Source: Halomonas sp. (GTDB taxonomy: Bacteria > Pseudomonadota > Gammaproteobacteria > Pseudomonadales > Halomonadaceae). Taken from it: DNA of 35,371 nt. A model generated the notes under the pieces. That model saw nothing but the letters and a program-made list of their open reading frames with translations. It searched no databases and was not told where the DNA came from. Shown piece after piece: positions 272 to 4,844 of the stretch. A program made the translations under genes and the position numbers. Position 1 is the first letter of the stretch, and each line of letters opens with the position of its first letter. The stretch lies in assembly GCA_003552795.1 (NCBI GenBank), contig PUOM01000206.1:1-35371 (forward strand). Direction: 5' to 3'.

Positions 272-1066
272 TCAGAAGTGCGGCTTGAGCTGCTGCACCA
301 GGGCCTTGTAGAGGCGCGGGCCGGCGGCCATCAGCTGCCCTTCCACCTCGACCTTGGGCTGGCCGTCCGGGGTGCCCATCAGGGCCCCGGCCTCTTTCAG
401 CAGCAGGCTGCCGACCTGCATGTCCTGCTCCTCCAGGCCCAGCACGAAGGCGGCATCGGCGCGGCCGGCGGCCAGTTCGGCCAGATCCAGCAGGCCGCTG
501 CCCGAGGCGCGCTGCACCTCGATGACCGGGCCGAGCTGCTGCACCAGGGTCAGATAGGCCGGCAGGTGGCGCGGGCGCAGCCAGGTCTCGGGCAGGCCCA
601 TGGCGATGCGCGTGCCGCCCACGGCGTGGGTCTTGGGCACGCGGATGCGCTTGCCGTTGTGCTGGGCACCGCGGCCGCGACTGACCAGGTACTCGTCGTC
701 GCTGAAGGGACAGATCACCACCGCATGCTCCGGACGGCCCTTGACCAGGCAGACCACCGACAGCGCGAAGCCGGAGGCGGCCACACCGAGGTTGGAGTAG
801 CCGTGGAAGGGTTCGATCTTCCACAGAGTGTCGGCGCCCTCCCCCTCACCGGCGCGGTGGGGGGTAAAGCGGCCGACGACGCCGTGCTGGGGGTAGCCGC
901 GGGAGAGCTGACGGACGATCAGCGCCTCGGCGTTGCGGGCGGCGTCTTCCAGCAGGCGATCGAGGTTGCTCTCTTCGTGGGCGTTCTCTATTCGCTCGCG
1001 AATGCGCAGGAACTGTTCGCCGGCGCTGCGCGCGGCGCGCAGCGCATATTGGACCATCGGATGCAT
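272..1066 (-). CDS. suhB: SuhB / inositol monophosphatase family protein with degenerate active site
   Basis: Starts MHPMVQYALRAARSAGEQ and contains LVKGRPEHAVVICPFSDDEYLVSRGRGAQHNGKRIRV and SGSGLLDLAELAAGRADAAF, colinear with E. coli SuhB. Sits divergent from trmJ. The track's longer ORF start (2146) is artefactual. Confidence 0.9.
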   Translation of the reverse strand: MHPMVQYALRAARSAGEQFLRIRERIENAHEESNLDRLLEDAARNAEALIVRQLSRGYPQHGVVGRFTPHRAGEGEGADTLWKIEPFHGYSNLGVAASGFALSVVCLVKGRPEHAVVICPFSDDEYLVSRGRGAQHNGKRIRVPKTHAVGGTRIAMGLPETWLRPRHLPAYLTLVQQLGPVIEVQRASGSGLLDLAELAAGRADAAFVLGLEEQDMQVGSLLLKEAGALMGTPDGQPKVEVEGQLMAAGPRLYKALVQQLKPHF

Positions 1067-1312: not shown

Positions 1313-2077
1313 ATGCTCGACCGCATCCGCATCGTTCTGATCGGCACCAGCCACCCCGGCAATATCGGCGGCGTCGCCCGCGCCATGCACAACATGGGCC
1401 TCGCCGACCTGGCCCTGGTGGCACCCCGCTGCGTGCCGGTCACCGCCGACAGCGTATCGCGGGCTTCCGGGGCCGACCACCTGGTCAATGCCGCCCGGGT
1501 GGTGGAGACTCTGGAGGAGGCGGTGGCCGACTGCACCCTGGTGGTGGGCGCCAGCGCCCGTTCGCGTACCCTGCCCTGGCCGATGATCACGCCTCGCGAG
1601 CTGGGCGTGCGGCTCCCGAAGGAGCTGGCCGGTGAGGCCGCGCGCCTTGCCCTGGTGTTCGGCCGCGAGGACAGCGGCCTGACCAACGCCGAGCTCCAGC
1701 GCTGCCATGCCCACGTGCACATCCCCACCAACCCGGACTTCAGCTCCCTGAACCTGGCCGCCGCCGTGCAGGTGCTCGCCTACGAGTGCCGCCTGGCCTG
1801 GCTGGCCGGGCAGGAGACCCCCGACGAGGAGCCCGGCCAGCCGCTCGCCACCCACGAGGAGCTGGAGCACTACTTCGCCCACCTGGAGCGCACCCTGATC
1901 GCCATCGGCTTTCACGACCCGGCCATGCCGCGCCAGCTGATGGCCCGTTTGCGTCGCTTCACCCTCAGGGCGCGCCCGGAGCGCATGGAGCTCAATATCC
2001 TGCGCGGCATCCTCTCCGAGACCGACAAGCGGGTGCCGGGTCAGGGCGACGACAAGGACCACCGCCACGGGGAATAG
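1313..2077 (+). CDS. trmJ: tRNA (cytidine/uridine-2'-O-)-methyltransferase TrmJ (SPOUT family)
   Basis: MLDRIRIVLIGTSHPGNIGGVARAMHNMGL..., SARSRTLPWPMITPRE, LVFGREDSGLTNAEL. Confidence 0.92.
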   Translation: MLDRIRIVLIGTSHPGNIGGVARAMHNMGLADLALVAPRCVPVTADSVSRASGADHLVNAARVVETLEEAVADCTLVVGASARSRTLPWPMITPRELGVRLPKELAGEAARLALVFGREDSGLTNAELQRCHAHVHIPTNPDFSSLNLAAAVQVLAYECRLAWLAGQETPDEEPGQPLATHEELEHYFAHLERTLIAIGFHDPAMPRQLMARLRRFTLRARPERMELNILRGILSETDKRVPGQGDDKDHRHGE

Positions 2078-3181: not shown

Positions 3182-3652
3182 ATGCGCCTGACCACCAAGG
3201 GACGCTACGCCGTCACCGCCATGCTCGATCTGGCCATGCACGCCCGATCGGAACCGGTTTGCCTGGCCGACATTTCCAGGCGCCAGGAGATCTCGCTCTC
3301 CTACCTGGAACAGCTGTTCGCGCGGCTGCGCCGGGCCAAGCTGGTCGAGAGCGTGCGCGGCCCCGGCGGCGGCTATCTGCTGGCCCACGCGCCGGAGAGC
3401 ATCTCGGTGGCCCGGGTCATCGACGCGGTGGACGAGTCGGTGGATGCGACCCGCTGCGGCGGCCTCTCCGACTGCCAGCAGGGCGATACCTGCCTGACTC
3501 ACCACCTGTGGTGCGAGCTCTCCGAACAGATTCACGGCTTCCTGGAGGGCATCACCCTGGGCCAGCTCGCCGCCCGCCAGGAGGTTCAGCAGATCGCCGG
3601 ACGCCAGCGCGGTCGTCTGAACGCCAGCAACATCTTCGCCTCGGCGCCCTGA
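3182..3652 (+). CDS. iscR: Fe-S cluster assembly transcriptional regulator IscR (Rrf2 family)
   Basis: [21 protein letters not shown]...[29 protein letters not shown]; cluster ligands C..C..C..H ([20 protein letters not shown]). Confidence 0.95.
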
Positions 3653-3686: not shown

Positions 3687-4844
3687 ATGAGCACACCCGT
3701 CTATCTCGACTATGCCGCCACCACGCCCGTCGACCCCCGCGTCGCCGAGCTGATGGGCCGCCACCTGACCCTCGATGGCATCTTCGCCAATCCCGCCTCG
3801 CGCAGCCATATGCTGGGCTGGCAGGCCGAGCAGGCGGTGGAGAACGCTCGCCGCCAGGTGGCCGACCTGATCGGTGCGGACCCCCGCGAGATCGTCTGGA
3901 CCAGCGGCGCCACCGAGGCCAACAACCTGGCCCTGACCGGCTATCTGCGGGCCAACCGCCACCGCGGCCGCCACCTGGTAACCTCAAGCGTCGAGCACAA
4001 GGCGGTGGTGGATACCGCCAGGGCACTCGAGGCCGAGGGCTTCGACGTCAGCTGGCTCGCCCCGGACCGCGACGGGCGCGTCACCCCCGAGCAGCTTGAG
4101 CAGGCCATGCGCGAGGATACCGTGCTGGTGTCGCTGATGGCGGTGAACAACGAGCTGGGCGTGATACACGACCTGGCGGCGCTCTCCGAAGTGACCCACG
4201 CCGGTGGCGCCCTCTTCCATGTGGACGCTGCCCAGGCGGTGGGCCGTCTGGACCTCGACGTGAAGCGCCTGGGCATCGACCTGATGTCGCTCTCCGGCCA
4301 CAAGGCCTATGGCCCCAAGGGCATCGGCGCCCTCTACGTGAAACGCCATCCCGATATCCGCCTGGAGGCGCTGATCCACGGCGGCGGCCACGAGCGCGGC
4401 ATGCGCTCCGGCACTCTTGCCACCCACCAGATTGTCGGCATGGGCGAGGCCTTTGCCCTGGCCGGCGCCGAGGGCGAGGCCGATCAGGCGCACATTGCGA
4501 CGCTGCGCGACCGGCTGCTCGAGGGCCTGTCGGACCTCGGCGGCATCCACTGCAACACCGCCGTCGAGGCGTCGGTGCCCAACATCCTCAACCTGGCCTT
4601 CGAGGGCGTCGACGGCGAATCGCTGCTGATGGCGCTGCGCGACATCGCCCTCTCCACCGGCTCCGCCTGCAACTCGGCGAGCGTCGAGCCGTCCTATGTA
4701 CTGAAGGGCATCGGCGTCCCCCGGGCGCTGGCGCTGGCCTCATTGCGCTTCAGCTTCGGGCGTTTCACCACCGAGGCCGATATCGACACGGCGCTTGTCG
4801 CCCTGCGCCACGCCCTGACCGGGCTGCGCCGCCAGGCGATATGA
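3687..4844 (+). CDS. iscS: Cysteine desulfurase IscS (C-terminally short)
   Basis: VYLDYAATTPVDPRVAELM...FANPASRSHMLGWQAEQAVE; PLP site SLSGHKAYGPKG; active Cys loop LSTGSACNSASVEPSYVLKGIG. Confidence 0.95.
   Translation: MSTPVYLDYAATTPVDPRVAELMGRHLTLDGIFANPASRSHMLGWQAEQAVENARRQVADLIGADPREIVWTSGATEANNLALTGYLRANRHRGRHLVTSSVEHKAVVDTARALEAEGFDVSWLAPDRDGRVTPEQLEQAMREDTVLVSLMAVNNELGVIHDLAALSEVTHAGGALFHVDAAQAVGRLDLDVKRLGIDLMSLSGHKAYGPKGIGALYVKRHPDIRLEALIHGGGHERGMRSGTLATHQIVGMGEAFALAGAEGEADQAHIATLRDRLLEGLSDLGGIHCNTAVEASVPNILNLAFEGVDGESLLMALRDIALSTGSACNSASVEPSYVLKGIGVPRALALASLRFSFGRFTTEADIDTALVALRHALTGLRRQAI

Follow-up and report, generated by a model that had tools for sequence, protein, structure and literature searches.

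A Halomonas SuhB orthologue with a ruined phosphatase site, probably retained as a Nus factor

The importance of the SuhB phosphatase for the rRNA role of the protein has so far been argued from mutants of E. coli. In that species, SuhB is both a Nus factor and an inositol monophosphatase (IMPase; PDB 2QFL, 6IB8 and 6TQN) with the core catalytic and metal-binding set E67, D84, D87, T89 and D212 (hereafter EDDTD, in E. coli numbering). E. coli SuhB binds NusA AR2 and nut-like RNA, admits NusB/E and delays Rho termination (PMC6614801), and its role in growth and cold sensitivity was not tied to its IMPase activity (PMC4807359). The IMPase-defective, growth-proficient E. coli SuhB mutants, as cited in PMC4807359, likewise indicate that the enzyme activity is dispensable for the growth role; those are laboratory alleles, whereas the state found in Halomonas is natural, fixed and repeated in whole families. 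The Halomonas protein shares with E. coli SuhB its fold, its length, the trmJ-iscR-iscS neighbourhood, an N-terminal signature and Lys251, but it has lost four of the five catalytic residues and is only ~32% identical. The E. coli and P. aeruginosa proteins are the nearest solved ones, and P. aeruginosa SuhB (PDB 8WIP and 8WDQ) is the closest in structure, with 39% identity and a TM-score of 0.91; in contrast to the Halomonas protein, it has a canonical EDDTD set and was crystallised with inositol-1-phosphate (8WDQ).

The window analysed here, that is, the whole stretch of 35,371 nucleotides, carries the suhB orthologue on the minus strand at positions 272-1066 (coding 275-1066, stop codon 272-274; 264 residues), with a reading frame uninterrupted from 1066 to 275; by its sequence, the product appears to be catalytically dead. 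The genes of the window run in the order secF (+), suhB (-), trmJ (+), cysE, iscR and iscS. The divergent neighbour trmJ (1313-2077, plus strand; SpoU_methylase match) anchors the orthology of suhB, and iscR (3182-3652, plus strand) and iscS (3687-4844, plus strand) are part of the same conserved suhB/trmJ/isc neighbourhood, the counterpart of which in E. coli is suhB-trmJ-iscR-iscS. As the two neighbourhoods agree, the window gene is the genuine orthologue of SuhB rather than a paralogue. The protein matched Pfam Inositol_P (PF00459) with 87 bits, above the gathering cut-off of 27, and failed the NCBIfam equivalog model for SuhB inositol-1-monophosphatase (NF008027, PRK10757; 143.7 bits vs the curated cut-off of 332), which was nevertheless the top-scoring model of all NCBIfam. 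A terminator-like hairpin with a T-run lies at 207-243 between secF and suhB. The 3' end of secF (1-151) lies past suhB and is convergent with it; in E. coli, a secY mutant was suppressed by suhB mutants (PMC4807359).

The IMPase catalytic set reads R, E, H, Y and D in the window protein (E67R, D84E, D87H and T89Y), so that D212 alone is kept of EDDTD. The ruined metal-binding and catalytic motif WKIEPFHGYSNL (788-823, minus strand; canonical W[VI]IDPLDGTTNF) aligned to WVIDPLDGTTNF of E. coli, with D84 corresponding to E85, D87 to H88 and T89 to Y90, and with G88 and N91 retained. At the C-terminal side, EQDMQVG (410-430, minus strand) is the remnant of PWDxAAG and retains Asp215, the equivalent of E. 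coli D212. The first-pass annotation had read both of these changes, namely the replacement of the DPxDGT Asp residues and catalytic Thr by E, H and Y and the survival of only the Asp of PWDxAAG, and the alignment upheld them. Its reading of the TEES motif as FTPH was corrected: TEES aligns with GRFT, and Glu67 is replaced by Arg66 (869-871, minus strand).

The AlphaFold2 model of the window protein revealed a complete SuhB fold (pLDDT 95.9, pTM 0.92), and the top Foldseek matches were all SuhB, namely the P. aeruginosa protein, the E. coli protein within the rrn antitermination complex (6tqn) and SuhB in complex with NusA AR2 (6ib8). Several residues that distinguish SuhB from its paralogues were also retained. 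The N-terminal signature MHPMVQYALRAAR (1028-1066, minus strand) contains P3, A8 and R10, which are present in canonical and pseudo-SuhB and rarer in IMPase paralogues. The SRGRGAQHNGKRIR segment (641-682, minus strand) carries the SuhB-specific Arg130 and Arg140 (E. coli R129 and R139), and R141 is also retained; R139 was found in 100% of pseudo-SuhBs, 97% of canonical SuhBs and 12% of IMPase paralogues. Overall, R10, R129, R139 and K251 were shared by canonical and pseudo-SuhB but seldom or never found in the 17 IMPase paralogues, and L9, E112, H113, E124 and S128 were likewise SuhB-specific in this taxonomic order. The C-terminal helix GPRLYKALVQQLK (284-322, minus strand) holds the two positions that correspond to the E. 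coli contacts with NusA-AR2, namely K254 and V257 (K251 and L254 in E. coli). Among 56 representatives, position 251 was K or R in 54 and position 254 was hydrophobic in all 56; in E. coli, the KL251/254AA substitution lowered the affinity of SuhB for AR2 more than 1000-fold (PMC6614801). NusA with a C-terminal AR2 was present in all 67 of the genomes checked. The dimer-region residues R183 and R184 were poorly conserved (R183 in 27 of the 56), which counts against an unchanged interface; R184 was tied to the E. coli SuhB dimer through the R184A variant (PMC6614801). The transcription-factor surface of the window SuhB is probably kept.

We therefore regard it as likely, on sequence and a predicted model, that the window protein is a SuhB without catalytic activity, retained to serve as a dedicated Nus factor. 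Substitutions have ruined its IMPase active site, but the fold is preserved; the protein would bind NusA AR2 and the rRNA leader and help to load NusB and NusE, and Rho-resistant rRNA transcription and rRNA folding would thus be supported with no phosphatase step. We infer the lack of phosphatase activity, the NusA binding and the rRNA role from sequence, and homology to E. coli points to rRNA antitermination as the role that was kept.

A match to the window protein was found in all 250 sampled Halomonadaceae genomes. In the core Halomonadaceae (108 distinct sequences), R67, H87 and G88 (R66, H88 and G89 of the window protein) were invariant, Y89 (Y90) was present in 107 and E84 in 106. These fixed new pocket residues indicate a new constraint rather than drift, so the former active site may have been rebuilt, its Arg-Glu-His-Gly-Tyr-Asp set binding a ligand or nucleic acid or performing other chemistry, besides or in place of the Nus role. 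Arg at position 67 also recurred, in 27 of the 56 representatives, including the independent lineage of family f45, and was seen in f1, f27, f39, f45 and others; such recurrence of Glu67 to Arg beyond one clade hints that a positive charge takes the place of the metal. Against this, the replacement residues differ between families (for example REHYD, QQHWE, RNLYE, RCDIS, ENDLE and RDQQE), which leaves no common new catalytic set, and the invariance could be structural, with Arg filling the metal site. We consider a rebuilt pocket of this kind unlikely. A related proposal, to which we give slightly more credence while still doubting it, is that of a metal-free functional pocket: Arg would have replaced the metal repeatedly, in more than one lineage, and the Arg-His-Gly-Tyr set invariant in Halomonadaceae would bind a ligand or lock the protein in the conformation that joins the rRNA antitermination complex, such that loss of the enzyme improved Nus function instead of only being tolerated.

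One other PF00459 member was found in the window genome, a canonical IMPase paralogue on another contig (C219, L001:1447-2304) with EDDTD intact, which answers the check proposed earlier for a second, canonical IMPase. The paralogue shares the Pfam Inositol_P superfamily with the window SuhB but differs in its full EDDTD set and in having none of R10, E112-H113, R129, R139 and K251. It was ruled out as a canonical SuhB located elsewhere, as it is without the SuhB-specific residues. More generally, the IMPase paralogues had EDDTD in 16 of 17 cases (the 17th is partial) and were without these residues. The existence of this paralogue would allow the window SuhB to act as a regulatory or dimer partner of an active IMPase. 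In four genomes that are 99-100% complete (G004, G474, G582 and G311), however, the pseudo-SuhB was the sole PF00459 member, so a partner is unnecessary and such a role is very improbable; the lineage can evidently dispense with IMPase-type activity from PF00459. The proposal that the enzyme was dropped and the scaffold kept is supported in silico in its first part: four of the five residues are gone, the loss extends across the family, and the genome encodes a distinct IMPase of canonical type.

A weak phosphatase activity could in principle persist through a different metal arrangement, given that the core group retains carboxylates at positions 84 (Glu) and 212 (Asp). However, E67 and D87, both metal ligands, are lost together with the catalytic T89, and a positively charged Arg occupies the metal site. 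Among 13 sequences from deeper-branching Halomonadaceae genera, at most one of the five catalytic residues was retained, and genera g40, g42, g59 and g61 had different, equally ruined motifs, such as NPLLGYEN, QPTHGWNN, NPLVGRDN and CAEHGMDN. In g40, g42 and g59, the carboxylate at position 84 was mostly gone and position 212 was E, Q or A. We judge residual activity to be even less probable than the partner role.

The window suhB lineage is under purifying selection: the median pairwise dN/dS of suhB among Halomonas relatives was 0.17 (IQR 0.15-0.20), compared with 0.15 for trmJ, a value derived from nine trmJ sequences only. Relatives with DPxDGT, which in the first-pass annotation were to mark the change as a sequencing or strain artefact, were absent from the Halomonadaceae (108 core and 13 deeper-branching sequences). 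The lost catalytic residues and low family-model score might suggest a pseudogene in decay, an error of sequencing or a peculiarity of the strain. This is almost certainly excluded by the matches in all of the family's sampled genomes, the dN/dS value and the high-confidence fold, and the earlier statement that the gene is not decaying holds. Retention of the scaffold is likewise supported by the dN/dS value, the predicted fold, synteny and the SuhB-specific residues, including the AR2 contact.

Identity between families was 29% among pseudo-SuhBs vs 54% among canonical SuhBs, although the two sets are equally diverged in NusA (66%) and RpoB (76%). This difference is as expected from lifting the enzyme constraint alone; because the pseudo-SuhBs are so divergent, their interfaces may have changed.

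Outside the Halomonadaceae but within their order, families f6, f7, f20, f27, f38 and f39 had trmJ-adjacent SuhBs with at most three of the five catalytic residues, and trmJ adjoined suhB in every pseudo-SuhB case of the order. In most remaining families of the order, the SuhBs examined had canonical EDDTD. A class-wide survey revealed more ruined SuhBs in four families outside the order, f178 (G865), f198, f67 and f171; those of f67 and f171 adjoin trmJ, and f178 contains both a canonical (G767) and a pseudo-SuhB (G865). Most low profile scorers in this survey, for example in f56, f91, f138 and f172, were canonical on inspection; a low score was therefore dropped as proof of loss, and the residues decided each case.

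A tree of NusA and RpoB was rooted with E. coli, and an AU test was performed on 59 taxa. Thirty-six genomes from seven GTDB families formed one clade (SH-aLRT 96), in which all were pseudo and none canonical. In f45, G498 was canonical and its sister group G306/G619/G342 was pseudo (support 100), and this loss is separate from that of the seven-family clade. A single origin, with all pseudo genomes in one clade, was rejected by the AU test (p = 3e-97). In f40, SuhB was canonical in three genera and pseudo in the fast-evolving G365; as this genome forms a very long branch, its family membership is the ground for taking its origin as separate. G390 (f38) grouped with f5 on the NusA-only tree, and its placement was left aside. 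The evidence is thus strong for two losses or more, and five or more are probable. Within the large clade, no residue was lost in every member; L227, for example, retains D87, T89 and D212. The particulars of the decay thus followed a separate course within each family. The first-pass annotation had spoken of "this lineage"; loss throughout the family was found, and the extent was underestimated, as it covers at least seven families and more than one origin. RpoB and NusA of G365 (L233, genus g99) are themselves unusually diverged (branch 1.31; NusA of 533 residues), in addition to its ruined SuhB.

The most economical reading is that the window protein performs the Nus role known from E. coli and nothing else. 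The pseudo-SuhBs would represent a repeated natural separation of the Nus role of SuhB from its phosphatase, wider than first claimed. The pseudo-SuhB families would then constitute a repeated natural experiment in which the scaffold is kept under selection without the enzyme, in some members with no other Inositol_P protein. Comparison of pseudo and canonical SuhBs marks candidate residues for the non-catalytic job, namely the N-terminal ALRAAR, R129, R139, R141 and K251. The label "inositol-1-monophosphatase" suggested by the family models is probably wrong for this clade. A literature search found no description of a pseudo-SuhB; most subscription papers were beyond its reach, and prior notice is possible.

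Some minor observations were made on the placement of suhB. In f15, the best SuhB-profile match of G074 and G318 (L193 and L235) was an IMPase-type paralogue away from trmJ, while G556 (L203) had a canonical trmJ-linked SuhB; some members of f15 may have lost suhB or carry it elsewhere. Canonical SuhB also lay away from trmJ in f37 (L221, L224 and L226 of G510, G334 and G453), unlike in most of the order. Finally, G761 and G860 of f172 (L392/L418 and L398/L419) each contained two strong, motif-intact SuhB-like genes, one of them adjacent to trmJ, which may reflect a duplication of suhB.
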